64,000 bases of DNA from NCBI GenBank assembly GCA_900155405.1, contig LT700188.1:1054001-1118000 (forward strand). The letters run 5' to 3'. Shown here in pieces: positions 1,846-30,006 of this stretch (positions are counted from its first letter, which is position 1; every line of letters begins with the position of its first letter). Position numbers and translations under genes: made by a program. The notes under the pieces were generated by a model, which was given only the letters and a program-made list of their open reading frames with translations, was not told where the DNA came from and ran no database searches. This stretch comes from Negativicoccus massiliensis (GTDB taxonomy: Bacteria; Bacillota; Negativicutes; Veillonellales; Negativicoccaceae).

Positions 1846-3841
1846 TTTCTGGTTCAAAAATCGCAGTGACCGCGTATACGCGGCGATTGTGATCCTGCTC
1901 CTTGCGGTGCTGGCCTGGTTCAATCCGATCGTGGCGGGCTTGTGCGCTCTGGTCGCGTTCGGCGTGTACCTCGTGTTGCGCAAAACGGAGATCGAGCAGG
2001 AACGCGTGTGGCGGCATTACCTGAATGCGGTGTCCGCCTCGGTGACGGAAGCGTCTTTATACGCGACGCAAAATTTGCCGATCGGGATCGCGATTATTGA
2101 TGAAAAAAGCATGCTCGTCTGGAGCAACTCGGTGTTTCGCGACTGGGTGCAGGAGCTGAAAGAGGGCGACCGCCTGCAAAAGTTGTTGCCGCAAACGCAA
2201 CTGGCCAAACTGTGGGGAAAATCGGGCTATTTTTCCGCGCGGATCGGCGACAGTTACTACCGCGTCATCTATAAATTCCTCGACCGCGCCAACGGCATTA
2301 ATGCCGGGGAGGGCGAGGATACCGCCGAAGCCTACATGGTGCTGTATTTTGACGATGTGACGGCGGCGGAGCGCAGTAAGCAGGAAAGCGTGGCGGCGTT
2401 GCCGGTGTTCTGCTATGTGCAGCTGGACAACTTGGGCGAAGTTTCGTCCGATTTGACGGAAGTGCAGCGTTCGGAACTCTGGTCGGAAGTCAATACGATC
2501 GTGCTCGACGAATTCGGCAAGCTCGACGGCTTTATCAAGAGTTACGAACGCAATAACTATATCGCCTGCATCAGCCGTAAGTCGTTGCAGCGATTGATTG
2601 ACGATAACTTCAAAATATTGGAAAAAGTGCGTTCGATTCACACGATGAACCGGATTCCGGTGACGCTTTCGATCGGTTGCGCCTATGGGGAAAAATCCTT
2701 CGCCGAGCAGGAAGAGGAAGCGCGCTTGGCGCTCGATTTGGCATTGGGCCGCGGCGGCGATCAGGTCGTCATTCGGGCGGACGGTGAAACGCAGGCCTTC
2801 GGCGGCAAGAGTCAGGCCCTGGCGAAAAATACGCGTGTGCGCGCCCGCGTGGTGGCGCAGGCGATTCACGAACTGATCAGCCAGGCGGACATGGTGCTCG
2901 TCATGGGGCACGCGAAAGAAGATTACGATGCGCTCGGGGCGGCGTTGGGCGTCGCGTACATGGCGACTTCGGAAGGCGTGCCGGCGCATGTCGTCATCAG
3001 CGAAGATCAGGACACGGTCGAAAAGCTGGTGGATCAGGTGCGCGCGACACCGGGTATGGAGGACTTGCTGGTTTCGGAAGAGGCCGCGCAAGCATTGGTG
3101 ACGCCGCAGACGGTACTCTTTGTAGTGGATACGCATAAACCGGAACTGACGGCGGCGCCGAGTTTGGTGGAAATGATTCAAAACCGCGTCGTCATTGATC
3201 ACCATCGACGCAGCAATACTTTTATTCCCGATCCGCTGCTCGTCTATCTCGAACCTTCCAGTTCCTCGACATGTGAACTTGTCACCGAGCTTTTACAGTA
3301 CTATTCCGATGCGATCGAATTGAATGAAACACAGGCCTCGGCGCTGTACGCCGGTATCGTCGTCGATACGAAGAACTTCGCCGTGCAGACCGGCATTCGC
3401 ACGTTCGACGCGGCCAGTTACTTGCGCCGCAGCGGCGCCGCGACGGAACTCGTCCGCGATCTGTTCGCGCTCGATTTCGAGACCATTTTGACGCGGGCGG
3501 ACGTGCTGACACGCGCCGAAAAAATTGACGGCGACATCGTGTGCGCGACCATTCCCGACGATGCGGAAAACGCGCAGATTCTCGCGGGACAAGTGGCCGA
3601 TATGATGGTCAACATTGAAAATATACATACGAGCATTGCCATTTACTACAATGGCGAAGGTTACAGCGCGTCCGTGCGTTCCGACGGCGAAGTCAATGTC
3701 CAGCGCGTGATGGAAGAGCTGGGCGGTGGCGGTCACCAGACGGTGGCGGGCGGACAATTCGCGCCGGAAGAAACGCCGGAAGAAATCAAAAATAAAATTG
3801 TCGCGCAGATTCGCGCGCAAAAAGAGGAGAATGCGAAATGA
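1832..3841 (+). CDS. gdpP: Cyclic-di-AMP phosphodiesterase GdpP
   Basis: A 669-residue membrane-bound phosphodiesterase that hydrolyses c-di-AMP, controlling potassium, osmotic and cell-wall homeostasis. Order of parts: two N-terminal transmembrane helices (about 15-50), a degenerate PAS region, a degenerate GGDEF domain (about 170-300), then DHH and DHHA1 domains. Seen motifs are [15 protein letters not shown] near residue 360 (metal-binding His and Asp), VVDTHKPE, the DHH motif at D456-H457-H458, and GGGGHQ in DHHA1. The open frame extends upstream to 1784, but the ATG at 1832 follows a GGAAAGGA box and gives the canonical start, [10 protein letters not shown]. It overlaps rplI by 4 bases (ATGA). 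Confidence 0.95.
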
Positions 3842-4294: not shown

Positions 4295-6208
4295 ATGAAA
4301 GATATCTGGCGGCGGTTGTGGAGTCGCAACTCGCAGACCGGCGCCGAGAGCGAAGCGGAATTCGGACGGCAAATCGCCGTCCTTTCGGGCGTGTATTCGG
4401 GCCTCATCGGCACGGAACGTTTTTTGCTGGCGGGCAGCCATTATAACGCGCTTTCCTACCTGCACGCGGAAGATCCCCAAAAACGGCTGGCGGGTTTGGC
4501 GCGCATCGTGCTGGAAGATCCGGATATTCCCGTGCCCGGTGAAGAGCAGTCGCAGGCGTTGCTGGAGCGAACAGAAAATCGTATCAGCGATCTCTTGGCG
4601 CGGCAGGCGGTCGAAGAGCGGCTGGAACAAAAAATTAATGATGCGCTGGAAGAAAAGCATCAGGAATATGTGAATGATTTACGCCTGGAACTTTTGAATG
4701 AAGAGACAGGCGATTTTGAAACGCCGCAATCCCGTGAAAAATTGGCGCAGCTGGACAAACTGGACCACATTCGTCTGACGGATACGATCGCCGCCCAAGT
4801 GCGGCCGCAAACCTTGGCGGATATTGTCGGTCAAAAAGACGCGGTGGAAGCCTTGCTCGCGAAACTCGCGACGAAGTATCCGCAGCACCTGCTTTTATAC
4901 GGACCGCCGGGCGTCGGCAAGACGACGGCGGCGCGCGTCGTGCTGGAGGCGGCGAAGCAATTTGATTTCACGCCGTTTCAAAAGGACGCGCCGTTTGTGG
5001 AAACGGACGGCACGACGTTGCGTTGGGATAATCGCGACATGACGAATCCGCTGATCGGTTCCGTGCACGATCCGATCTACCAGGGGGCGCAGCGCGACCT
5101 CGCCGATAAGGGAATTCCCGAACCGAAACCTGGACTCGTGACCAAAGCGCACGGCGGCGTTTTGTTTATCGATGAGATCGGGGAAATGGATCCGCTGCTG
5201 CTGAATAAACTTCTGAAAGTGTTGGAAGATAAGCGGGTGTACTTCGAGTCGTCGTACTATGATGAAGACGATCCGCAGGTGGCGGCGTATATTAAAAAAC
5301 TATTCCGTGACGGCGCGCCGGCCGATTTTATTTTGATCGGCGCGACAACGCGCGCGCCGGAAGAGATCAATCCGGCGATCCGTTCGCGTTGCGCGGAAGT
5401 CTTTTTCGCGCCATTGGCGACGGATGATGTCGCGCGAATCGTCACGGACGCGGCGCAAAAACTCGGCGTGGCATTGGAGGACGGTGTCGCGGCGGCGATT
5501 GCCGAATACACCGGCGAAGGACGCAAAGCGGTGCAGCTGCTGGCGGACGCGTACGGTTTGGCGATGTACCATGCGGGACGCGCCGACGGCTTGACCGTTA
5601 CCTTGCAGGATTTACGACGGGTGGCGCAGGCGGCGCATCTCGTGCCGCAACGTCATGATCAGGCTTCAGCGCAGCCGCGGGTCGGACATATTTTCGGCCT
5701 GGGCGTGGCGGGCTATATCGGCTCGGTGATTGAAGTGGAAGCCGTCGCTTTTCCCGCGCGCATTCCCGGCAAAGGCGAATTGCGTTTCAACGATACGGCG
5801 GGCTCGATGGCGAAAGACTCCGTGTTCAACGCTTCAGCGGCGGTACGTCGCGTCGCGGGCGCGGATGCGCGTGAATATGATTTGCATGTGAATGTGATCG
5901 GCGGCGGTCAAATTGACGGCCCTTCGGCGGGCGTGGCGGTGACTTGCGCGCTGCTTTCGGCGATTACGGGCATTCCGTTGCGGCAGGATATCGCCGTCAC
6001 GGGAGAAGTCGCGCTGAACGGCGCGATCAAACCGATCGGCGGCGTACACGCGAAAGCGTACGGAGCGAAACAGGCCGGCATGAAAAAAATGCTCATTCCG
6101 GATGAAAACCGGGATGATATCGGCACGGAGTACGCGGGATTGCCGATTGTTCGCGTCAAAACCATCGAAGACGCGTGGCGGGAAATGACCGCGGGAGGTA
6201 TGGCATGA
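4295..6208 (+). CDS. lonC: Lon-family ATP-dependent protease LonC
   Basis: A 637-residue AAA+ protease of the LonC type, which lacks the large N-terminal substrate domain of LonA. An N-terminal helical region (1-160) precedes the AAA+ module. Walker A is YGPPGVGKTT with K209, and Walker B is GGVLFIDEIGEMD. The protease domain has the catalytic serine in DGPSAGVAV (S544) and the paired lysine 43 residues later in PIGGVHAK (K587), the spacing found in E. coli Lon. A GGAGG box lies about 12 bases before the ATG. In the family this protease is linked to sporulating or formerly sporulating Firmicutes; its substrates are unknown. The stop overlaps the dnaB start (ATGA). Confidence 0.93.
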   Translation: MKDIWRRLWSRNSQTGAESEAEFGRQIAVLSGVYSGLIGTERFLLAGSHYNALSYLHAEDPQKRLAGLARIVLEDPDIPVPGEEQSQALLERTENRISDLLARQAVEERLEQKINDALEEKHQEYVNDLRLELLNEETGDFETPQSREKLAQLDKLDHIRLTDTIAAQVRPQTLADIVGQKDAVEALLAKLATKYPQHLLLYGPPGVGKTTAARVVLEAAKQFDFTPFQKDAPFVETDGTTLRWDNRDMTNPLIGSVHDPIYQGAQRDLADKGIPEPKPGLVTKAHGGVLFIDEIGEMDPLLLNKLLKVLEDKRVYFESSYYDEDDPQVAAYIKKLFRDGAPADFILIGATTRAPEEINPAIRSRCAEVFFAPLATDDVARIVTDAAQKLGVALEDGVAAAIAEYTGEGRKAVQLLADAYGLAMYHAGRADGLTVTLQDLRRVAQAAHLVPQRHDQASAQPRVGHIFGLGVAGYIGSVIEVEAVAFPARIPGKGELRFNDTAGSMAKDSVFNASAAVRRVAGADAREYDLHVNVIGGGQIDGPSAGVAVTCALLSAITGIPLRQDIAVTGEVALNGAIKPIGGVHAKAYGAKQAGMKKMLIPDENRDDIGTEYAGLPIVRVKTIEDAWREMTAGGMA

Positions 6209-7563
6209 TCGAACGGATTCCACCGCAAAATGTGGACGCGGAACTGTCCGTCTTAGGGGCGGCGGTGACCAACAAAGAAGCGGCGATTAAAGCGACCGAC
6301 GTACTACAGGCGGCCGATTTTTATCGGGAAGCCAACGCGGTCGTTTTTGAAGCGATCAATAATCTGATTTTTCACAACCAAAATGTCGACGTCTTGACGG
6401 TGACGGAAGAACTGCGCCGCATGGGGCAACTGGATAATGTCGGCGGCGTCAGCTATGTGACGGATTTACCGAACCATCTCGTTTCCTCCCTCGACGTGGA
6501 ACGGCATGCGCAGATCGTGCTGGAAAAAGCGCGCTTGCGCCGCCTGATTCTCGCCGCGGATACGATCGCGGGGGAAGCGTACGCCGGCGAAGGCGAAGTG
6601 ACGGATATCGTCGATGCCGCCGAACGACGCATTTTGGAAGTGGCGAAAGATGAACGTCGTCAGGAGATGACGGCGATCGGTGAGATCGTCCAGGGACAGT
6701 TGGACGATATCGCCAATAAATATACGAATAAAAGCGGGATTACCGGTTTACCGACCGGATTTTCCGGTTTCGATAATATTACGAGCGGGTTGCAGCCGTC
6801 CGATCTGATTTTGGTGGCGGCGCGTCCGTCCATGGGCAAAACGGCGTTGACGCTTAACATCGCGCAGCACGTGGCGTTGAAAGAGAACAAAAATGTGGCG
6901 TTCTTTTCCTTGGAAATGTCGCAGGAACAGCTGGGCTTGCGCATGATCTGCTCGACCGCGCTTGTCGATTCGCAAAAATTGCGCACGGGCCGCATCACTT
7001 CGCAGGATGAATGGTCGCGTATTATGCAGGCGGCGACGGCTTTATACGACGCGCCGCTGTTCATTGATGATACGCCGGGGATTACGGTCGCGGAAATGCG
7101 TTCCAAGGCGCGACGCTTGCAGGCGGAAAAAGGACTCGATTTAATCATCGTCGATTACTTGCAATTAATGCAGGGCAGTCAGGGCCGTCGACAGGCGGAA
7201 AATCGGCAGCAGGAAATTTCCGAAATTTCGCGCTCGCTGAAAAGCTTGGCGCGTGAACTCAAAGTGCCGGTGATCGCACTTTCGCAGTTGAGCCGAAGCG
7301 TCGAATCACGCCAAGTGAAACGTCCGATGCTTTCCGATTTGCGTGAATCCGGTTCCTTGGAGCAGGACGCGGATATCGTCGCGTTTCTCTATCGGGAAGG
7401 TTACTACCAGCAGGAAATTGAAGATTCCAGTAAAAATATCACGGAAGTCATCATCGCCAAGCATAGAAACGGCGCCACGGGCACGATTCAGTTGTACTTC
7501 CATGGTCAGTGGACGCGCTTTGTCGATATGACGAACCGCAACGACGAGGCGGAGGCGCAGTAA
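6205..7563 (+). CDS. dnaB: Replicative DNA helicase
   Basis: A 452-residue hexameric 5'-3' helicase of the replication fork. The N-terminal domain (MIERIPPQNVDAELSVLGAA) and the RecA-like domain are both complete. Motifs seen include Walker A ARPSMGKTALTLNIA, FSLEMSQEQLGLRM, LIIVDYLQLMQG, and SDLRESGSLEQDADIVAFLYR. The open frame extends to 6175, but the ATG at 6205 has GGGAGG 7 bases upstream and gives the normal DnaB start. No intein or insertion is visible. Confidence 0.97.
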   Translation: MIERIPPQNVDAELSVLGAAVTNKEAAIKATDVLQAADFYREANAVVFEAINNLIFHNQNVDVLTVTEELRRMGQLDNVGGVSYVTDLPNHLVSSLDVERHAQIVLEKARLRRLILAADTIAGEAYAGEGEVTDIVDAAERRILEVAKDERRQEMTAIGEIVQGQLDDIANKYTNKSGITGLPTGFSGFDNITSGLQPSDLILVAARPSMGKTALTLNIAQHVALKENKNVAFFSLEMSQEQLGLRMICSTALVDSQKLRTGRITSQDEWSRIMQAATALYDAPLFIDDTPGITVAEMRSKARRLQAEKGLDLIIVDYLQLMQGSQGRRQAENRQQEISEISRSLKSLARELKVPVIALSQLSRSVESRQVKRPMLSDLRESGSLEQDADIVAFLYREGYYQQEIEDSSKNITEVIIAKHRNGATGTIQLYFHGQWTRFVDMTNRNDEAEAQ

Positions 7564-7566
7564 TTC

Positions 7567-8322
7567 ATGACGGACGGGACGAGCGAAATCGATTTGTGGC
7601 AGGACAACGCGCCGATGAATTGGCGGTCCTTGCCGGACAGCGCGGAGCCGTTTACGGAACATTGGTATGAAACGGCGCAGCATTGCCGTCATTGTCGTCT
7701 CGGCGCGGAACCGAATCACGGTCCGACCGGCGCGACCGGTCCGATTGATGCGCCGTTGATGCTGGTCGGCGAGGGACCGGGCGGCGTGGAAGATACGTAC
7801 GGCGTGCCGTTGGTCGGTCCGAGCGGGCAACTTTTAGATCGCGCGCTTTGGTCGGTCGGCATCACGCGCGATCGCGTGTACGTGACGAATATCGTCAAGT
7901 GTCGGCCGCGCAACAATCGTACGCCACAGGCCGCGGAGGCGGATATTTGCGCCGCGCGCTGGCTCTGTCGCGAAATTACGTTAGTGAAGCCACGCGCGAT
8001 TGTCGCTTTGGGAAAAGTCGCGCTGCGTTTTTTCGCCGGTCGCGAATTGGGCATCGTACGTTCGCGCGGCCAATGGTTGCAGTGGACGCTGCCGGGCACG
8101 AACGAAGTCTATCCCGTCATGCCGACGTTTCATCCCGCGTACCTGTTGCGTTTGACGGGGCAGGCGGAAAAAGAAGCGAAGTGGCAGGTATACTACGATT
8201 TACTGGCGGCCAAAGAAAAAGCGGCGGCCGCCGTTCCCGCATACCGCTGGCAAGCGGCGACGCCGCCGGATCTCAAGGGTCTGTTTGATGAGAGACGTCA
8301 GGAACGCGCGCAGAGGCGCTGA
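7567..8322 (+). CDS. Uracil-DNA glycosylase, iron-sulfur (family 4 type)
   Basis: A 251-residue uracil-DNA glycosylase that removes uracil from DNA to start base-excision repair. Motif 1 is GEGPGGVEDTYGVPLVG, followed by GPSGQLLDRAL. The block YVTNIVKCRPRNNRTP and the C-terminal motif PTFHPAYLLR are also present. Cysteines in CRHCRLG (39 and 42), VKCRP and the following Ala-rich helix are placed to bind the 4Fe-4S cluster of family 4/5 enzymes. An N-terminal leader of about 30 residues and a C-terminal tail of about 40 residues extend beyond the core. The gene starts 3 bases after the dnaB stop. Confidence 0.9.
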   Translation: MTDGTSEIDLWQDNAPMNWRSLPDSAEPFTEHWYETAQHCRHCRLGAEPNHGPTGATGPIDAPLMLVGEGPGGVEDTYGVPLVGPSGQLLDRALWSVGITRDRVYVTNIVKCRPRNNRTPQAAEADICAARWLCREITLVKPRAIVALGKVALRFFAGRELGIVRSRGQWLQWTLPGTNEVYPVMPTFHPAYLLRLTGQAEKEAKWQVYYDLLAAKEKAAAAVPAYRWQAATPPDLKGLFDERRQERAQRR

Positions 8323-8333
8323 AGGAGGCTATT

Positions 8334-9101
8334 GTGCAAGAACCGATTTTATTTAATCCGCGCGTGGCCGCGCAGAAACCGCGCAGCGTTTTGCATGATC
8401 CCTGTCCGTTTTGCGCCCGCGAGCATCTGACCGATATCCTCGCACAAAAAGACGAGATGATTTGGCTCGTCAACAAATATCCCGTCATGGAAAAAACCTG
8501 GCAGACTGTGTTGATCGAAACGGCGAAACATGACAGCGATATCGCGACGTACGCGCCGGAAGAATGGGAAAATATTTTACGCTTCAGCATGGAAAAATGG
8601 CGTGAAACGATTGCGCGTCGCAGATTCCGTTCCGTGATTTATTACCGCAACTTCGGTCCGACTTCGGGCGGTTCTATTCGGCATCCGCATTCGCAAATTA
8701 TCGGTTGCGAATCGTTTGACTACATGCAAAATGTGCGGTTGGATCAGCTTGACGGCGAAGTTTTGCATGAAACGAACGGCGTGCGCGTGACGCTGTCGGA
8801 TCATCCTATCTGCGGGTTGCGTGAATTTAATGTACGGCTGAAAGATCCGGAACGACTGGATGAATTCGCCGACAGTATTCAAAAACTTGTGAAAGTGATT
8901 GTCGATCCGAACGGCTGGGGATATGCCAGCTATAATTTATTTTTCTACGCGGCCGATTATGAATACTGTAAAATTATCGCGCGCGGCGTGACGAGTCCGC
9001 TCTTTCTGGGCTACATGCTCACGCAAGCGCCCGATGCGAAGGCGCGGCAAGCGATTCGTGAGGAACTTATGCCGCTTTGGACGGCGACAAGGAGACGATA
9101 G
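8334..9101 (+). CDS. DUF4931 / GalT-like HIT-superfamily protein
   Basis: A 255-residue protein that resembles galactose-1-phosphate uridylyltransferase. It has a Cys pair, DPCPFCAREHL, near residue 23, and the nucleotide-transferase signature RHPHSQIIG, where the HxH histidine would carry the nucleotidyl group. It is shorter than true GalT (about 350 residues), and no galK or galE lies nearby, so a role in galactose metabolism is not supported. DUF4931 is the closest named family. The GTG start at 8334 has AAGGAGG 5 bases upstream. It lies in one transcription unit with the glycosylase and the phosphoesterase. Confidence 0.75.
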   Translation: MQEPILFNPRVAAQKPRSVLHDPCPFCAREHLTDILAQKDEMIWLVNKYPVMEKTWQTVLIETAKHDSDIATYAPEEWENILRFSMEKWRETIARRRFRSVIYYRNFGPTSGGSIRHPHSQIIGCESFDYMQNVRLDQLDGEVLHETNGVRVTLSDHPICGLREFNVRLKDPERLDEFADSIQKLVKVIVDPNGWGYASYNLFFYAADYEYCKIIARGVTSPLFLGYMLTQAPDAKARQAIREELMPLWTATRRR

Positions 9102-20385: not shown

Positions 20386-21801
20386 TTATGCGTTGTCGTA
20401 ATCGTATAAGGGCAGACCGTCCTGGCGTTTTTCATCGTAATCGCGCAACACGGCTTTGATTTCCTTATGCAAGAGAATCAGCGCGATCAAGTTCGGGAGC
20501 ACCATGATGCCGTTGAACATATCACTCATATCCCAAACGAGTTCGACTTTGCCCAGCGTGCCGAGAACGATAAAGGCGAGCACGAGCACGCGATAAATAT
20601 TCAGGGCCGCGGACGAACGGAAAAGGAAACGGATATTCGACTCGCCGAAGTAGTACCAGCCGATGACCGTGGTGAAGGCGAAGAACGTGAGGCAAGTCGC
20701 GATGATCATCGGACCGATTTCGCCGAAGGCGGTGTGGAACGCTTCCTGCGTGACGAGCGCGCCGCTGAGTCCGAGCTGATCCGCGCCGGTCAAGAGAATA
20801 ATCAGCGCGGTCGCAGTGCAGACCAACATGGTATCGACAAAGACGCCGATGAACGCGGTAAAGCCTTGCAACACCGGATGCGCGACGAGCGCGGTCGCGT
20901 GCGCGTGCGGCGTAGAGCCCATGCCGGCTTCGTTCGAAAAGAGGCCGCGGGCGACGCCGAAGCGAATCGCTTCTTTCATCGTGACGCCCAAGAGACCGCC
21001 GCCGAGCGCCTGCGGATTGAATGCGCCCACAACGATGTGCTTAATCATCGGCAAGATTTCTCCCGCATAGAGGAAAAGAATCACCAGCGCGCACAAAATG
21101 TAAATCACCGCCATCAACGGCACGATGAGCTGCGCGAAATGCGCGATCCGATGAATGCCGCCGATGAAGATTAAGCCCGCGAAGATCGCGATCACGACGC
21201 CGATCATCAGCGGGTCCAGACCGAAAGCGTTGTTGACGGCGCCCGCGATCGAATTGGACTGCACCATGATGCCGATAAAGCCGAGCGCGATGATAATTGA
21301 AACGGCGAAGAAGCCGGCGAGAAATTTCGCCCAGCTTTTGCCGATGACAGGCGCTAAACCGCGCGAGATATAGAACGCGGGGCCGCCGATAAATTTACCC
21401 GCCACTTCCACGCGATATTTTTGCGCTAAAATCGCTTCGGCGAAGATCGTGCCCATGCCGAACAGCGCGGACACCCACATCCAAAAAATCGCGCCCGGAC
21501 CGCCCGCCATAATCGCGGTCGCGACACCGGCGACGTTGCCCGTGCCGACCTGCGCGGAAATCGCTACCGCCAGCGCCTGGAACGAGGAGATCGTACGACC
21601 GTCGCGATCGGTGTGCTGCTCTTTATACAAGCGACCGAATACCTGCCGCACGGCCGGACCGAAACGAATGAACTGCGGCGCGCCGAGATACACGGTAAAA
21701 AACAGACCGACGCCGACCAACGCGTACATCAGTACGGAACCCCACAAAATTTCGTTGACAGATGCCACGAATTGGGACCAAAGTCCCAAAAGCTCAGCCA
21801 T
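20386..21801 (-). CDS. Sodium:alanine symporter, AGCS family (copy 1)
   Basis: A 471-residue polytopic transporter of the alanine-or-glycine:cation symporter family. Family blocks seen are SSFQALAVAISAQVGTGNVAGV, GGPGAIFWMW, YRVEVAGKFIGGPAFYI and LFSNEAGMGSTPHAHA. The open frame runs back to 21873, but the ATG at 21801 has GGAGG upstream and gives MAELLGLWSQF, which matches the start of the paralogue at 28570-30006. A good leftward promoter lies at 21858-21886. The two copies agree at most positions by eye. It probably imports alanine for the alanine dehydrogenase encoded at 31.8 kb. Confidence 0.93.
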   Translation of the reverse strand: MAELLGLWSQFVASVNEILWGSVLMYALVGVGLFFTVYLGAPQFIRFGPAVRQVFGRLYKEQHTDRDGRTISSFQALAVAISAQVGTGNVAGVATAIMAGGPGAIFWMWVSALFGMGTIFAEAILAQKYRVEVAGKFIGGPAFYISRGLAPVIGKSWAKFLAGFFAVSIIIALGFIGIMVQSNSIAGAVNNAFGLDPLMIGVVIAIFAGLIFIGGIHRIAHFAQLIVPLMAVIYILCALVILFLYAGEILPMIKHIVVGAFNPQALGGGLLGVTMKEAIRFGVARGLFSNEAGMGSTPHAHATALVAHPVLQGFTAFIGVFVDTMLVCTATALIILLTGADQLGLSGALVTQEAFHTAFGEIGPMIIATCLTFFAFTTVIGWYYFGESNIRFLFRSSAALNIYRVLVLAFIVLGTLGKVELVWDMSDMFNGIMVLPNLIALILLHKEIKAVLRDYDEKRQDGLPLYDYDNA

Positions 21802-21857
21802 AATATCTCCTCCATAAAAACAATTGACCGTGTTAAAAACACAAATAAATTGGATTA

Positions 21858-21886
21858 AGTGTACCACGATCATTAAAAAATGGCAA
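21858..21886 (-). promoter_or_regulatory. Sigma-A promoter of AGCS copy 1
   Basis: Read on the minus strand: TTGCCA, 17-base spacer, TACACT. It ends about 57 bases before the start codon. Confidence 0.75.
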
Positions 21887-22065
21887 GGAGGAAATAATTT
21901 ATTTTACTAAATAATTATCGACAGTGTTTTTCATCCGACAGCATTCTTTTTTATTTCATATTCGCAAAACCCGCCTGTATGGAGCGGATCAAGACTAAGG
22001 TGTAAAATAATGGTATGATGTTATCGTTGAATATTTCATCTTTTAGTGAATCTGAGGAGCTAATC

Positions 22066-22275
22066 ATGGCGGTAACATACAGACGACTATTTCACTTATT
22101 AATAGATAAAGATATGAGCGTTTCAGACCTGCAGAAAAAAGCGGGATACAGTGCTAACATATCTACCAAATTAAAAAATGACAGTTACGTATCCTTAGAA
22201 ACCATAGAAAAAATTTGCCGCGCTTTAGGTTGTGACATCGAAGACATTGTAGAAATCAAGGAGAACCGGAAATGA
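22066..22275 (+). CDS. Small XRE-type HTH regulator of the RM locus
   Basis: A 69-residue DNA-binding protein that is almost only a Cro/C1-type helix-turn-helix: MSVSDLQKKAGYSANISTKL, then SLETIEKICRALGCDIEDI. The ATG at 22066 has GAGGAG upstream; the frame open to 22015 is longer only by chance. Its stop overlaps the start of the restriction-modification gene (ATGA), so it is coexpressed with it. Its size and position match controller (C) proteins of restriction-modification systems, but no C-box was identified. Confidence 0.85.
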   Translation: MAVTYRRLFHLLIDKDMSVSDLQKKAGYSANISTKLKNDSYVSLETIEKICRALGCDIEDIVEIKENRK

Positions 22276-25200
22276 TCACAAAATCAAACTTAAAGGAAGT
22301 CCTGCCATTAATCGGATATAAAGAACAAGAAAATTACTTTACGAAACAATACCCGGAGTTTGATTGTCATATTTCTGTTGACTTTGCAAATGAAAAAATA
22401 AATTATCCCGAAGATAAAGGTCTGCGGGTTCATAAAAGAACTACCTGCAACTTTTCGGATCCGGAAAATTTCGTTGTCTTGGAATGCGTCACCAGATTAA
22501 TGGATAAAGGATATCGACCGGAGCATATAGAAATTGAAAAGACATGGTCGTTGGGTCATGATCAAAAAAGCGGCAGAGCGGATATTCTGGTCAAAGAAAG
22601 CACGGGCAAAACATTATTTATTATTGAATGCAAAACATATGGCAGAGAATATGATAAAGCGTTAAAAGACACTATCAATGACGGTGCGCAATTGTTTTCC
22701 TATTGGCAACAGGAAAAATACTGCAAATGGTTGGTGCTTTATGCGTCTACGCTCGATGGAAACAGCATCGATTATAAAACCTGCTCCATCAACTGTAGCG
22801 ATGATAAAAACTTAATCGAACTCGCCAAAAAAGATGCGTCAATTCTTCTGTATAAAAACGCCTACACCGTTCCCGAACTCTACAATGTATGGAAAGAAAC
22901 ATATGAAAGAAGACTGCTGGGCGATATTTTATTCCGAGATGACTCCATCGCTTACCAAGTCGGCGTCAAACCTTTGCGGAAAAAAGATCTTATTGACTTT
23001 ACGGGAAAAGATAGAGTGGTCAATAAGTTTGAAGAAATACTCAGGCATAACAACGTATCGGATAAAGAAAATGCTTTTAACCGATTGATCGCTTTATTCA
23101 TATGCAAACTGGTCGATGAAATACAAAAGACGGATACGGATGTAGTTGATTTTCAATACAAAATCGGAACGGATACGTATGAAAGTTTGCAAGACCGACT
23201 TCAACGCTTGCATAAAGAAGGCATGGAAAAATTCATGAAGGAAGATATCTTCTACATTCCGGAGGACTATGCCCAAAAAACCATTCTGCAATATACGGGA
23301 GACAATCGAAAAGAGTTGATCAAAGAACTCGATAAAACTTTCAAAATATTAAAGTTCTATACGAACAATGACTTCGCTTTTAAAGACGTTCATAATGAAG
23401 AACTGTTTTTACAAAACGGCAAAATTTTAGTGGAAGTAGTTAAACTTTTTGAAAACTACAGAATCATCGGCTCAAACAATTTGCAAATGCTGGGAGATCT
23501 TTTTGAGCAACTTTTAAATAAAGGCTTCAAACAAAATGAAGGTCAATTTTTTACGCCGGTCCCGATAACCCGTTTTATTTGGGACAGTTTGCCGCTGGAA
23601 AAAATTGTCAGGCAAGATGAAAAAACCAATACCCCTAAAATCATAGATTATGCGTGTGGCGCGGGTCATTTTCTCACAGAGGGATTCGAAGCGATCAACG
23701 ATATTTTCATGTGGATTGATCCCGATGCGAAGGTTGACTTTTCATGGGCCAGAGACAATATCTATGGCATTGAAAAGGATTACAGGCTGGCCAGAGTTTC
23801 CAAGATATCTTTATTCATGCACGGCGCCGGTGATGGCAATATCATCTTTGGTGACGGACTGGAAAACTATAAGGAAAAAGGAATTGTCCCGGAAACATTT
23901 GATGTCTTGGTGGCGAATCCGCCGTATTCGGTTTCTGCATTCAAGCCGCATTTAAACTTAAAGAATAATGACTTTAACGTTTTAGATAAAGTTTCAAATA
24001 ACGGATCGGAAATAGAAACGCTCTTCGTGGAACGAATTTCCCAGCTGTTAAAACCGAAAGCTGTCGCGGCGGTCATCCTTCCGTCTTCCATACTCAATAA
24101 AGAAAATGAAAGCTTTATCGCGGCGCGAGAGTCGGTCCTTGAAAACTTCGCGATAAAAGCCATCGTCAGCTTGTCCGATAAAACCTTTGGGGCGACCGGG
24201 ACAAATACGGTGATTTTGTTCTTGGAAAAATATGACGAGCCGCCCAAACGAATCGATTTGATAAAAGACACCGTGGATGCGATCCTCAGCGGGCAATCGT
24301 TAGAACATTGGGAAGACGAAATTGTTTTTGCGGAGTATTTAAAAACAATTGGTCTGACCAAAGAAGACTACTATGACTTCGTTTTAAAAAAGATAAACTA
24401 TACGGATTACACGAGCAAATATTTTAAAAACTATGTTACTGCGTTTTTGAACCTTAGCGCGACCAAGGCGAAGAAAAAACAAAGAATGTTTTCCAAGCTG
24501 ACAAAAGACGAACAGGATACTATTTTAAATAAAATGTTTTATGACTATGTTTTGGAAGTCGAAAGAGAAAAAATAAAATACTTCGCGCTGATCTACAAAA
24601 ACAGAACCCTCATAGCAAACGCGCCCGCTGATAATAAAGCGCAAGAGGCGTTTTTAGGGTACAAATGGTCGAACCGCAAAGGGCAGGAAGGAATACAGAT
24701 AACAAGCCCCGGCGGCAAACTGTATGATGAGACAAATCGGCAAAGCGGAAATACGTTGGCTTCGCTGATTCGGCGCATGTTTAATAGTGAAGAATATTCA
24801 ATAGAAGGTTTGGAAGAATATTACTATTACCTCAATACCAAAGATATGCTGGATTTTAAGAGCGTTAATTTTAATAAGGGCATCAAAACCAGAAAGACAA
24901 GGATTTTAAAAGATGACCCTAATTTAACAACTTACTATCTGTCAGATAAAAAAGTGTTTGATTTATCTATTGGTGACAGGGTTTTAAATGATGAACTTGT
25001 TGAAGATGGAGAAGTACCGGTATATAGTGCCAATGTATTTGAAGAATTTGGCAGGATTAATAAAAACAATATCACTGATTTTTCAAAACCATCCATACTT
25101 TGGGGCATTGATGGCGACTGGATGGTGAACTATTTGCCAGCCAACAAAGAATTTTATCCCACAGACCACTGCGGGGTTTTAAGATTAAAAACAGATCGAA

Positions 25201-25961
25201 TCTTGCCGGATTATTTAGTTCATGCGTTGCAAGTTGAAGGAGAATATGAACGATTTTCAAGAAATTACCGAGCATCCATACAAAAAGTGAGACAACTGGT
25301 TATTCAAGTGCCATCAATTGATGAACAAGAAAGAATTGTTTCAGAAATTGATAAAGTGGATTCTACAATTAAAGAACAAGATTCGATAATTAAAAAATAT
25401 GACGAAGATATCAAATCAAAATTTGCCGAGATGTTTGCGGATTACAGTGCAAAAAAACTTATAGGCGATATAGATGAAATAATTATTTCAAAAGGAACAA
25501 CAATTACAGCGTCACAGACCATTAAAGGCGATATTCCCGTAGTTGCGGCAGGAATTAAACCCGCATACTATCACAATGAAAGCAATTGGCCTGGGAATGT
25601 AATTACGGTTAGTGCTTCAGGAGCAAATGCAGGGTATATCAATTATTGGGATAGACCAATATTTGCGAGTGACTGTAACGTTATAGAATCTACTGATGCA
25701 AATAAAGTCAATATAGTATTTTTGTTCTACGCATTATTGCAAAATCAACAAAAGTTATTTGAATCACAAAAAGGTAATGCACAACCTCATGTCTATGCAG
25801 ATGATATCAAAAGTATATCTATACCTTTTCCAGCAATATTAATGCAGAATCAGTTTGCATCTTATGTAGAAGAAATCGACAAATTGAAATTTGAAGCTAG
25901 CCAAAGAAAGGAAAAAGCCGAAACCGAAAAAGAAAACTTAATAGAGAAATATTTCAGATAA
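22272..25961 (+). CDS. Fused restriction nuclease-methyltransferase-specificity protein (AloI-like Type IIB/IIG)
   Basis: A 1229-residue single-chain RM enzyme. Residues 1-200 form an HsdR_N-type PD-(D/E)xK nuclease with D104, E119-C-K121 and the following Q140-xxx-Y144. Residues 390-760 form a gamma-type N6-adenine methyltransferase with QFFTPVPITR, DYACGAGHF (459-467, AdoMet) and NPPY (549-552). Residues 885-1050 and 1050-1229 are two HsdS-like target-recognition halves. Each ends in a coiled helix (PSIDEQERIVSEIDK and FASYVEEIDKLKF). This R-M-S-S order is that of AloI-type enzymes, which need no HsdR translocase; no helicase domain is present. The gene is A+T-rich compared with the flanks. 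The second recognition half is bounded by repeats that recur downstream of the recombinase. Confidence 0.9.
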   Translation: MITKSNLKEVLPLIGYKEQENYFTKQYPEFDCHISVDFANEKINYPEDKGLRVHKRTTCNFSDPENFVVLECVTRLMDKGYRPEHIEIEKTWSLGHDQKSGRADILVKESTGKTLFIIECKTYGREYDKALKDTINDGAQLFSYWQQEKYCKWLVLYASTLDGNSIDYKTCSINCSDDKNLIELAKKDASILLYKNAYTVPELYNVWKETYERRLLGDILFRDDSIAYQVGVKPLRKKDLIDFTGKDRVVNKFEEILRHNNVSDKENAFNRLIALFICKLVDEIQKTDTDVVDFQYKIGTDTYESLQDRLQRLHKEGMEKFMKEDIFYIPEDYAQKTILQYTGDNRKELIKELDKTFKILKFYTNNDFAFKDVHNEELFLQNGKILVEVVKLFENYRIIGSNNLQMLGDLFEQLLNKGFKQNEGQFFTPVPITRFIWDSLPLEKIVRQDEKTNTPKIIDYACGAGHFLTEGFEAINDIFMWIDPDAKVDFSWARDNIYGIEKDYRLARVSKISLFMHGAGDGNIIFGDGLENYKEKGIVPETFDVLVANPPYSVSAFKPHLNLKNNDFNVLDKVSNNGSEIETLFVERISQLLKPKAVAAVILPSSILNKENESFIAARESVLENFAIKAIVSLSDKTFGATGTNTVILFLEKYDEPPKRIDLIKDTVDAILSGQSLEHWEDEIVFAEYLKTIGLTKEDYYDFVLKKINYTDYTSKYFKNYVTAFLNLSATKAKKKQRMFSKLTKDEQDTILNKMFYDYVLEVEREKIKYFALIYKNRTLIANAPADNKAQEAFLGYKWSNRKGQEGIQITSPGGKLYDETNRQSGNTLASLIRRMFNSEEYSIEGLEEYYYYLNTKDMLDFKSVNFNKGIKTRKTRILKDDPNLTTYYLSDKKVFDLSIGDRVLNDELVEDGEVPVYSANVFEEFGRINKNNITDFSKPSILWGIDGDWMVNYLPANKEFYPTDHCGVLRLKTDRILPDYLVHALQVEGEYERFSRNYRASIQKVRQLVIQVPSIDEQERIVSEIDKVDSTIKEQDSIIKKYDEDIKSKFAEMFADYSAKKLIGDIDEIIISKGTTITASQTIKGDIPVVAAGIKPAYYHNESNWPGNVITVSASGANAGYINYWDRPIFASDCNVIESTDANKVNIVFLFYALLQNQQKLFESQKGNAQPHVYADDIKSISIPFPAILMQNQFASYVEEIDKLKFEASQRKEKAETEKENLIEKYFR
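25410..25437 (+). repeat. Direct repeat A, copy 1 (start of expressed TRD2)
   Basis: 28 bases encoding IKSKFAEMF. They match 26996-27023 with a single mismatch (C versus T at the 17th base). This is the hinge between the two recognition halves of the RM enzyme. Confidence 0.93.
25854..25893 (+). repeat. Direct repeat B, copy 1 (end of expressed TRD2)
   Basis: 40 bases encoding the helix ASYVEEIDKLKF. They match 27494-27533 with a single mismatch. Between repeats A and B lie 416 bases that encode the expressed second target-recognition domain. Confidence 0.93.
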
Positions 25962-26011
25962 AATAAGCCCGCCAATCTTCTATCTGTATACTGATTTTCA
26001 AGGAGGAACGT

Positions 26012-26995
26012 ATGAAAAATTCAGCTATTACAGAAATCATGCAAGAGATGGCGGGCTATTTAAATAATCAGCAACTCGAAAAGCTTGAAAAAACCTTACA
26101 TCACACTTTGTGGAACAAAGAAATTGTCGAGAAGGATGATTTTCAAGCAAGTGATGATACGGATTATTTAGCGGAATTTTTGTCCGCGAAAAAAGTGGAA
26201 GGTTGCTCGGAAAGGACACTTTCCTATTATCAAAGCACTTTACAAAAGATGTTGCATATTTTGAATAAGTCGGTCAAACAAATTGAAACGGGCGATTTAC
26301 GTTCGTATATCGCGTCCTATTCCGATCATCAAAAGGTAAGCAAGACTACTCTGGATAATATAAGGCGGATCATTTCCAGCTTTTTTGCTTGGCTTGAAGA
26401 AGAAAACCACATTATTAAAAGTCCGGCGAGACGTATTCATAAAATCCGAACAGGAAGCACGGTAAAATCCGTTTACACAGATGAAGAATTGGAGATGCTG
26501 CGAGACTCTTGTGACGATATAAGAGACGTGGCGATTATCGATTTTCTCGCTTCCACCGGAGTTCGCATAGGTGAGCTGGTGAAAATAAATATTTCCGATA
26601 TAGATTTTGATAAAAGAGAATGCATCGTTTTAGGCAAAGGAAATAAAGAGAGGATCGTTTATTTTGACGCAAGGAGTAAAATTCATGTGTTAGAGTATCT
26701 TGCTAACAGAAGGGATGACAACCAAGCGCTTTTTGTGTCTTTAAATAAACCTCACAAACGACTGAAAATTTCAGGAATTGAAATCAGGCTCAGAAATTTA
26801 GGTAAAAAACTCAATATTGAAAGAGTCCATCCCCACAAGTTCAGGAGAACGTTAGCCACAAACGCGATTGATAAGGGAATGCCCATAGAGCAAGTCCAAC
26901 TCTTACTGGGACACACTAAAATAGATACCACTTTGCACTATGCGATGGTTAATCAAAACAATGTAAAACAATCCCATAGAAAATACATAGGCTGA
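26012..26995 (+). CDS. Tyrosine recombinase (XerC/D-like integrase)
   Basis: A 327-residue site-specific recombinase. The N-terminal SAM-like DNA-binding domain covers about 50-135. The catalytic domain carries the full residue set: R185 in TGVRIGEL, K209 in GKGNKER, H275-xx-R278 in HPHKFRRT, H301 in LLGHTKIDTT and Y310. It is therefore likely active. The start follows AAGGAGG. Its stop codon directly abuts repeat A copy 2, so it sits between the expressed and the spare recognition cassette. Similar recombinases lie beside phase-variable Type I hsdS genes. It is A+T-rich like the RM gene. Confidence 0.92.
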   Translation: MKNSAITEIMQEMAGYLNNQQLEKLEKTLHHTLWNKEIVEKDDFQASDDTDYLAEFLSAKKVEGCSERTLSYYQSTLQKMLHILNKSVKQIETGDLRSYIASYSDHQKVSKTTLDNIRRIISSFFAWLEEENHIIKSPARRIHKIRTGSTVKSVYTDEELEMLRDSCDDIRDVAIIDFLASTGVRIGELVKINISDIDFDKRECIVLGKGNKERIVYFDARSKIHVLEYLANRRDDNQALFVSLNKPHKRLKISGIEIRLRNLGKKLNIERVHPHKFRRTLATNAIDKGMPIEQVQLLLGHTKIDTTLHYAMVNQNNVKQSHRKYIG

Positions 26996-27023
26996 ATCAA
27001 ATCAAAATTTGTCGAGATGTTTG
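26996..27023 (+). repeat. Direct repeat A, copy 2 (start of silent TRD cassette)
   Basis: Same 28-base element as 25410-25437 with one mismatch. It begins on the base after the recombinase stop codon and is in frame with the spare cassette. Confidence 0.93.
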
Positions 27024-27493
27024 GGGGCAAAAATTTCAAATTAAAAAAATTGTCTGATCTATTCTCATTTCAATTGGGGAAAACGCCTTCAAGATATAAT
27101 AACGAGTATTGGAATAAAAAAGGACATAAGTGGATTTCGGTTGCTGATATGGGGAATTATCATAGATTTACAGGAGATACTTCTGAATTTATAACTGACA
27201 AAGCTATCATCGACACCGGAATAAAACCAGTACCGGCTGGTACTGTTATTATGAGTTTCAAATTAACTATTGGGAGAACAGCCATAACCGCAGAAAATAT
27301 ATTTACAAATGAAGCGATAATCGCCTTTTTGAACAAGGGCGGCGACTACGTTAATAATGATTATTTGCGATTATGCTTATCTCTGCACGATTGGTCTACT
27401 GGAGAAATGAACGCCGTTAAGGGGGCTACCCTTAATCAATCGTCTATAGGAAACGAGACAATAAAAATTCCGCCTAAAGACTTGCAAGACGAA

Positions 27494-27533
27494 TTTGCAT
27501 CGTATGTAGAAGAAATCGACAAATTGAAATTTG
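27494..27533 (+). repeat. Direct repeat B, copy 2 (end of silent TRD cassette)
   Basis: Same 40-base element as 25854-25893 with one mismatch (G for T at 27502). All similarity to the expressed gene ends here. Confidence 0.93.
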
Positions 27534-27630
27534 CCTTTTACGGGAAAAACACGCCTGCAAAAACGCGGCGCGGATGACCGACAGCTTTTTGCAAAGTCTT
27601 TTTTGCGCACTCGGTACATGAAAATAAAAT

Positions 27631-28542: not shown

Positions 28543-28571
28543 AAAAAACGCCCCGTACGGGGCGTTTTTTT
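28543..28571. terminator. Bidirectional intrinsic terminator
   Basis: AAAAAACGCCCC-GTAC-GGGGCGTTTTTT, a perfect stem between the convergent FNT (+) and AGCS copy 2 (-) genes. Confidence 0.9.
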
Positions 28572-30006
28572 ATGCGACGCTGTCATAATCGTAGAGAGGG
28601 ATGCCGTCCTGCCGTTTTTTATCGTAATCGCGCAAGATGCCTTTGACTTCTTTATGCAGGATGATGAGAGCAATTAAGTTCGGAAGGACCATAATGCCGT
28701 TGAACATGTCAATCATGCTCCAGATCAGGTCGACCGTGCCGAGCGTGCCGAGCACGATGAAGACCAGGACCAGCGCCCGATAGGTGTAGAGAACGGCGTT
28801 TGATTTAAATAAATAGCGGACGTTCGATTCGCCGAAATAATACCAACTGATGACGGTCGTAAAGGCGAAGAACGTGAGGCAGATCGCGATGATTTTCGGT
28901 CCGATGGCGCCGAACGCGATATGAAATGCTTCTTGCGTGACCATCGCGCCGTCTAAACCGAGCTGATCCGCGCCCGTAAGTAAAATAATTAAAGCGGTCG
29001 AGGTGCACACCAGTATGGTGTCCACGAAGACGCCGATGAATGCGGTGAAGCCTTGCAGCACCGGGTGAGCGACCAGCGCCGTCGCGTGCGCGTGCGGCGT
29101 CGTGCCCATGCCGGCTTCGTTCGAAAAGAGGCCGCGGGCGACACCAAAGCGAACGGCTTCTTTCATGGTGACGCCGAGTAAACCGCCGCCCAATGCCTGC
29201 GGATTAAACGCGCCGATGACGATGTGTTGAATCATCGGCAGAATGTGCTCGGCAAACAGGAACAGGATGACGAGTGCGCAGAGAATGTACACTGCCGCCA
29301 TTATCGGTACGATCAGTTGCGCGAAACGCGCGATCCGATGAATGCCGCCGATGAAAATCGCGCCCGCGAATAGAGCGATGAGCAGGCCGCACACGACCGG
29401 CGAAATACCGAACGCGTTGTTCACGGCGGTGGCAATCGAGTTCGACTGCGCCATGCTGCCGATAAAGCCGACGGAGATAATAACAATGACCGCGAAGATA
29501 CCGGCGAATATTTTGGCGTTTGTTCGGCCGATGTAGCTTTGCAGACCGCGCGAGATGTAAAATGCCGGACCGCCGATAAATTTGCCGGCGACTTCCACGC
29601 GATACTTTTGCGCTAAGACAGCTTCGGCGAAAATGGTGCTCATGCCGAAGAGCGCCGATATCCACATCCAGAAAATGGCGCCGGGGCCGCCTGCCATAAT
29701 GGCGGTCGCTACGCCCGCGACGTTACCGGTGCCGACTTGCGCGGAAATCGCGACGGCCAGCGCTTGGAACGAAGAGATCGATTTTCCGTCGCGATCGGTA
29801 TGTTGATATTTATACAACTTACCGAAGACCTGACGCACCGCCGGCCCGAAACGGATAAATTGCGGCGCGCCGAGATACATCGTAAAAAATAATCCCACGG
29901 CCACCAGACCGTACATGAGAACGGAACCCCACAGCACCTCGTTGACGGAATCAACGAATTGGGACCAATACATGAGAAGATCGGATAAAAAGCTCTCTGT
30001 CGTCAT
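28570..30006 (-). CDS. Sodium:alanine symporter, AGCS family (copy 2)
   Basis: A 478-residue transporter, a close paralogue of the gene at 20386-21801. Long identical blocks include SSFQALAVAISAQVGTGNVA, AQKYRVEVAGKFIGGPAFYI and GGGLLGVTMKEA. It has the same C-terminal YDYDS/YDYDN ending. Differences cluster in the loops and near residues 175-215. The start ATG at 30006 follows AGGGAGA. The leftward promoter is at 30049-30077. The pair probably arose by duplication, and the RM island and the FNT gene now lie between the copies. Confidence 0.93.
   Translation of the reverse strand: MTTESFLSDLLMYWSQFVDSVNEVLWGSVLMYGLVAVGLFFTMYLGAPQFIRFGPAVRQVFGKLYKYQHTDRDGKSISSFQALAVAISAQVGTGNVAGVATAIMAGGPGAIFWMWISALFGMSTIFAEAVLAQKYRVEVAGKFIGGPAFYISRGLQSYIGRTNAKIFAGIFAVIVIISVGFIGSMAQSNSIATAVNNAFGISPVVCGLLIALFAGAIFIGGIHRIARFAQLIVPIMAAVYILCALVILFLFAEHILPMIQHIVIGAFNPQALGGGLLGVTMKEAVRFGVARGLFSNEAGMGTTPHAHATALVAHPVLQGFTAFIGVFVDTILVCTSTALIILLTGADQLGLDGAMVTQEAFHIAFGAIGPKIIAICLTFFAFTTVISWYYFGESNVRYLFKSNAVLYTYRALVLVFIVLGTLGTVDLIWSMIDMFNGIMVLPNLIALIILHKEVKGILRDYDKKRQDGIPLYDYDSVA

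Follow-up and report, generated by a model that had tools for sequence, protein, structure and literature searches.

In the tvr (SpnIV) locus of Streptococcus pneumoniae, halves of a Type I hsdS gene are shuffled by excision and reintegration, which has been demonstrated in pneumococcus and makes use of midpoint and tail repeats with a common core of ~11 bp and of circular intermediates (PMC6265443). Type II systems as a rule phase-vary only between on and off, since the specificities of methylase and nuclease must change together; one frameshift-based exception is described in Helicobacter pylori (PMC6265443). AloI, PpiI and TstI are Type IIB/IIG enzymes in which one chain of ~1250 aa holds the nuclease, a gamma-type methylase and two recognition halves (PMC3874165, PMC4027205), and swaps of target recognition domains (TRDs) in enzymes of the AloI type were made experimentally and reported to work, according to a review (PMC3874165). 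Here we analyzed a 64,000-nt stretch of Negativicoccus massiliensis DNA (contig LT700188.1, 1,054,001-1,118,000; hereafter the window, whose positions are used throughout unless a locus label is given), which encodes a restriction-modification enzyme with its nuclease, methyltransferase and specificity parts on a single chain (R-M-S), followed by a tyrosine recombinase and a silent spare recognition half. We are fairly confident that the locus switches specificity in the manner of tvr, with a single-chain R-M-S as its enzyme, and that its recombinase acts at the sequence AAAT-N4-ATTT within two repeats, A and B. This reading is carried by the anatomy of the locus, the conservation of its sites, the continuity of its frames and an exchange of silent and expressed halves at these very sites in two related species. 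Judging from its sequence, the island which holds the system is probably functional in specificity switching, and activity is predicted for this strain.

As in tvr, the layout is '2+1', with two recognition halves, a recombinase and a spare half in one direction, two kinds of direct repeats (midpoint and tail) that share a short core, and a linked tyrosine recombinase lying between the expressed and the silent half; this likeness is drawn from the published description of tvr. Unlike tvr, which is a Type I system with separate hsdR, hsdM and hsdS, here R, M and both halves lie in one frame of 1229 aa (22272-25961, plus strand, as are all features of the locus given below), identified from its open reading frame (ORF), Pfam and PADLOC. 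A reading made earlier from the sequence alone had assigned to this enzyme a nuclease, a methyltransferase and two recognition halves, and all of these were recovered. Residues 1-300 (22272-23171) form the nuclease part with GRADILV...FIIECK motifs of PD-ExK type and an HSDR_N_2 match at residues 75-134, slightly under the cut-off; residues 405-656 (23484-24239) form the N6-adenine methyltransferase part with DYACGAG and NPPY motifs (N6_Mtase, 3.2e-33); and Methylase_S matches in two stretches (3.1e-27). Of the two recognition halves in the enzyme, TRD1 (24957-25406) comes first, and TRD2 (25438-25853), the expressed second half, shares 42% identity with one half of an R-M-S from Lactobacillus gasseri; the native C-terminal tail (25894-25961) follows behind repeat B. 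The PADLOC Type IIG model PDLC03624 matches the enzyme at 968 bits, among solved structures the BsaXI RM subunit is closest to it in sequence, and a helicase/translocase part was not seen, there being no helicase family among its Pfam matches at 0.001.

Repeat A occurs at 25410-25437 (copy 1, core AAAT-CAAA-ATTT at 25413-25424) and at 26996-27023 (copy 2, same core at 26999-27010), while repeat B occurs at 25854-25893 (copy 1, core AAAT-TGAA-ATTT at 25881-25892) and at 27494-27533 (copy 2, same core at 27521-27532). The copies of A agree at 27 of 28 positions and those of B at 39 of 40, and both pairs are direct, so that the claim of the same order and direction around both halves held. A and B proved to be related, both being centred on the palindromic core AAAT-N4-ATTT, whose spacer reads CAAA in A but TGAA in B. 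An inverted match between the two repeats raised the idea of an inversion site; this was dismissed, as the match is nothing else than this palindromic core with differing spacers. The window thus has three S halves and four core sites, all in one direction. From its start down to 25413 the gene has no AAAT-N4-ATTT, hence none ahead of TRD1, and therefore the first half-site is predicted to be fixed and the second to switch.

The silent half TRD3 (27024-27493) gives a good Methylase_S match (4.6e-14), and its frame is open from repeat to repeat. It had been described as lacking a ribosome site and a normal start; a ribosome site is indeed not evident, but there is an in-frame ATG at 27017, inside repeat A copy 2. 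The two copies of A share the codon phase and so do the two copies of B. One could argue that the spare half is a decaying duplicate or a relic of the acquisition of the island and that nothing moves, as it has no ribosome site of its own, its tail is chromosomal sequence and switching was not observed in this strain. We consider this very unlikely: besides the open frame and the retained family match, TRD3 is a different recognition core and no copy of TRD2, and the recognition cores differ although the repeats flanking them are 96-98% identical. Moreover, another R-M-S (genome G559, locus L162) has an expressed second half to which TRD3 is 61% identical, which supports the function of TRD3, and both TRD2 and TRD3 presumably work.

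The recombinase (26012-26995) is an XerA-like protein of 327 aa which matches NF040815 at 250 bits and has relatives 54-66% identical over most of their length. As the sequence-only reading had stated, all catalytic residues are present and repeat A copy 2 starts on the base after the stop codon (TGA, 26993-26995). We scanned one genome per named species and obtained 76 recombinase loci, from Bacteroidota, Bacillota, Actinomycetota and others, most of them 54-62% identical to the window recombinase over the full length. R185, K209, H275 and R278 are invariant in the 76 rows, and H301 and Y310 match in all 73 rows which reach that far. Wherever the context was readable the recombinase was located among recognition halves of Type I loci, and the R part of the window enzyme found no match in any of the 76. 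Side observations on the family include a viral contig (L097, 586-8249) with four related tyrosine recombinases in two pairs, 39-43% identical to that of the window, a recombinase gene broken by a 1.6-kb gap ahead of its last 39 residues (L062, 8001-10563), and frame breaks in the recombinase region of L060 and L065; the last three are perhaps locked loci.

Core sites and orientation were analyzed in 58 loci, the window counted among them. AAAT-N4-ATTT was observed 242 times against 36.8 expected from sequences with equal neighbour frequencies, and it is present in the repeats of nearly all loci. The S halves point all one way in 33 of the 58 loci and are mixed in the other 25; the earlier view that inverted repeats are the norm for such shuffling needs correction, direct repeats being nothing unusual in this recombinase family, and tvr too uses direct repeats (PMC6265443). 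Mixed loci contain paired sites with reverse-complement spacers (GATA/TATC, CGCA/TGCG, GATT/AATC), whereas direct loci that have two classes of paired sites use one spacer at the mid-S site and a different one at the other site, each of them directly repeated (CAAA/TGAA in the window, CACA/TAAA in L007, L011 and L059, TTAG/CCCG in L071, GATA/TCTC in Bacteroides). From this pattern we infer that the spacer is an address which decides which sites pair, and it may well be the strand-exchange overlap. In the tree the window recombinase falls in a 16-row group without mixed loci (support 87/96), although the fork is drawn open and its end branch is long.

Taken together with the tvr precedent, these features suggest that the most likely mechanism is excision followed by reintegration, as in pneumococcal SpnIV tvr. 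The 4-base spacer would set the partners, A with A (CAAA) and B with B (TGAA). Recombination between the two A sites would release a circle carrying TRD2 and the recombinase and leave R-M-TRD1-TRD3 on the chromosome; re-entry of the circle at B would then place TRD2 in the silent position and give back the native tail, which would make the swap reversible. In the bipartite recognition sequence the first half would stay and the second alone would alter, and cutting and methylation would change together because both reside on one chain. When these steps were carried out in silico, A x A excision gave an enzyme of 1239 aa with TRD3, B x B excision one of 1221 aa with TRD2, and A excision followed by B reintegration one of 1247 aa with TRD3 and the native tail; every predicted product was in frame. 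For the proposed swap at both repeats no simultaneous double exchange is needed, as A excision followed by B reintegration suffices.

Natural exchange of this kind was found in relatives. Family-wide and phylum-wide searches with recombinase or enzyme queries returned no further relatives at the thresholds used, and the decisive ones surfaced only in class-wide searches of 380 genomes; R-M-S homologues occur in 39 of these and the recombinase in 30. Two species of one genus in the order of the host (G740 and G738) carry the recombinase, 66% identical to that of the window, directly behind an R-M-S and then a spare half, with cores in the expected places (AAAT-CCAA-ATTT at A, AAAT-TGAA-ATTT at B). 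The silent half of G740 (L144, 9703-10207) and the expressed half of G738 (L145, reverse complement, 1659-2163) are 99.2% identical. The two loci are otherwise collinear, the enzyme up to A being 98.6% and the tail with the recombinase 98.0% identical, and the edges of the exchange can be placed in windows of 24 bp (core A) and 26 bp (core B). Furthermore, within each species both A copies carry the same T or C which distinguishes the species, as expected if both copies recombine. The trade of silent and expressed halves with edges at A and B, together with the in-frame products, supports the proposed direct-repeat cassette exchange of the second half; it also makes a decaying duplicate unlikely, since what is silent at this position in one of the two species is an expressed half in its relative. 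Both species also contain, between the recombinase stop and A2, an additional A core fused to an old S tail (FKSKFDAKKRIATLIAERNSLVDKYFR; L144, 9623-9702; L145, reverse complement, 3266-3345), which looks as if an A-type site had once recombined with a B-type site or a cassette had been lost.

A further explanation would be that cassettes are traded between strains by ordinary homologous recombination or transformation, like the domain movement of H. pylori, and that the recombinase is incidental. TRD movement at repeats with no linked recombinase is indeed described (PMC3077401), and the R-M-S on a viral contig (L080, see below), which has a relative of TRD1 in second position and no recombinase, fits this idea. 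However, the exchange windows of 15-26 bp lie on a palindromic core of recombinase type, and spacer matching tracks geometry throughout the family. Among 17 R-M-S loci without the recombinase none has a core at A and one has a core at B, even though several encode a nearly identical KSRFVEMFG peptide there; the core is therefore no by-product of coding. The exact test of core against recombinase presence gave 0.0009 for A and 0.0035 for B, with G738 and G740 not being independent of each other. We give homologous exchange with an incidental recombinase very little credence, and the recombinase is instead taken to be the agent which, via circles, would switch the window locus.

Similar exchanges were noticed in Type I loci of the recombinase family. 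The Lactococcus plasmids pJM2A, pJM1A, pUC073A and pUCCL627F (L089, L090, L091 and L094; ~4500-8400) carry identical Type I S cassettes in differing arrangements together with a recombinase of the same family, and their breakpoints fall within 15-19 bp on AAAT-CATC-ATTT / AAAT-GATG-ATTT; by this comparison the four forms are natural isomers of one locus. Among direct Type I loci, L011 keeps as its spare the half that L059 expresses (98.6%), and the half expressed in L043 is kept as a spare in L053 (97%). On the strength of such alignments the recombinase family is active, with its crossovers at the core. Two copies of the spare cassette (537 bp, >99% identical) are present in L059 (8700-10312), and a further S half separates them.

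Could the recombinase then be mainly an integron-like capture device, gathering new cassettes behind itself and only occasionally moving one into the gene, as a slow evolutionary ratchet with no reversible phase variation? The extra and duplicated cassettes of L059 speak for it, as do the facts that G740 and G738 have one cassette in common and a second one different in each, that NF040815, the best family model of the recombinase, also takes in integron integrase-like proteins, and that A x A excision by itself could not be undone once the circle was lost. Yet the window has one spare cassette only, direct loci keep a fixed layout with spacers differing by site type, and the analogue tvr shuffles within cultures (PMC6265443). 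We regard a pure capture device as unlikely, albeit less so than the two explanations discussed above.

Some points weigh against reversible switching by the window locus. The reading rests on assembled sequence, and no rearranged molecule of this strain has been seen. A toxin-antitoxin pair like tvrAT and an attenuator, both of which tvr carries, were not seen here, the 50 bp between enzyme and recombinase being without a gene or a terminator-like site. If excision were not followed by reintegration, the enzyme would end in a different tail of 14 codons. Lastly, G740 and G738 are different species, each with one cassette absent from the other, so that more than one event is needed to relate them.

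The whole system sits inside an island of ~5.6 kb (~21960-27539) with low G+C (30-48% per 250 bases against 53.6% for the whole window). The one other genome of the genus compared (G003) is 94% identical to the window on the left and right of the locus and lacks everything between ~21960 and 27539; by this comparison the island is an acquired one. A unit of 22272-27577 had been proposed, whose genes are all present, but the island has other limits and includes a further gene, a small helix-turn-helix (HTH) regulator (22066-22275; Pfam HTH_26, 8.1e-19) which overlaps the enzyme start by 4 bases; its start at 22066 behind GAGGAG is our reading, the ORF list beginning at 22015. The right end of the island lies within ~6 bp of repeat B copy 2, which makes the spare half its last part. 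The spare frame is closed by chromosomal sequence (27534-27577) giving the different 14-codon tail, and the empty site of G003 is matched from 27540 on. There is no second copy of the locus in its own genome. Two genes of sodium:alanine-type symporters (20386-21873 and 28570-30006), 78% identical in DNA and both on the minus strand, bracket the island plus a formate/nitrite transporter gene.

Among the R-M-S homologues of the class (L144-L162) TRD1 is strongly conserved, with best matches of 57-72% to the window, while the second halves differ; by sequence, the R-M-S enzymes of the class may share one half-site. Phage sequences searched with the R-M-S gave no match. The viral contig mentioned above (L080, 8001-11763) has an R-M-S ~60% identical, without the recombinase and with the frame of its S part interrupted, whose second half resembles the window TRD1, a case of domain movement. 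R-M-S relatives of Lactobacillus gasseri plasmids and of Mycoplasmopsis cynos have no annotated recombinase nearby.

Among the systems close to the window locus are the Clostridia Type I loci of hsdM-hsdS-recombinase-hsdS' order (L007, L011 and L059), with a recombinase 61% identical, an A site at the corresponding position of the S half and a second one directly past the recombinase stop, the B site at the tail and, in L007 and L011, a single spare half; they differ from it in having separate Type I subunits, and their spacers are CACA and TAAA where the window has CAAA and TGAA. Invertible hsdS loci of Bacteroidota, Bifidobacterium and lactic-acid-bacterial plasmids share the recombinase family and the AAAT-N4-ATTT core, but they flip rather than excise, as their sites stand in inverted orientation and carry reverse-complement spacers. 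PsrA/SpnIII of pneumococcus, another invertible locus, is set apart by its description. In domain movement (DOMO) of H. pylori, which concerns Type I and Type IIG S subunits, recognition halves likewise move at flanking repeats; in contrast to the window locus, the S subunit there is separate, movement was inferred between strains, the mechanism is unknown and there is no linked recombinase or silent cassette (PMC3077401). The earlier comparison with AloI stood for architecture only, namely one chain, its domains and its size; the cutting pattern of AloI, PpiI and TstI is known, and no recombinase or spare half is described for these enzymes. Direct-repeat shuffling of S halves is already known from tvr, whereas what appears to be new is that it operates on a Type II enzyme made as one chain; we found no report of recombinase-driven specificity switching in such an enzyme, within an incomplete coverage of the literature.

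A single-chain R-M-S would escape the constraint on Type II systems, as one cassette exchange alters both activities. It raises a question of survival, for the inseparable nuclease and methylase would meet a new target on a chromosome not methylated there. TstI belongs to the same kind of single-chain enzymes, and its rates of methylating and of cutting unmodified sites are similar (PMC4027205); the risk of switching should therefore be measurable. We further think it somewhat more probable than otherwise that the address code is general to the recombinase family, the core AAAT-N4-ATTT and its spacer choosing the partners, such that one spacer leads to inversion and two incompatible spacers to natural cassette exchange of recognition halves, and that in N. 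massiliensis this code drives a reversible change of specificity, beyond on/off, in a single-chain enzyme of Type II, with nuclease and methylase retargeted together. If true, the AAAT-N4-ATTT rule would allow recombination partners at many loci to be predicted from sequence.

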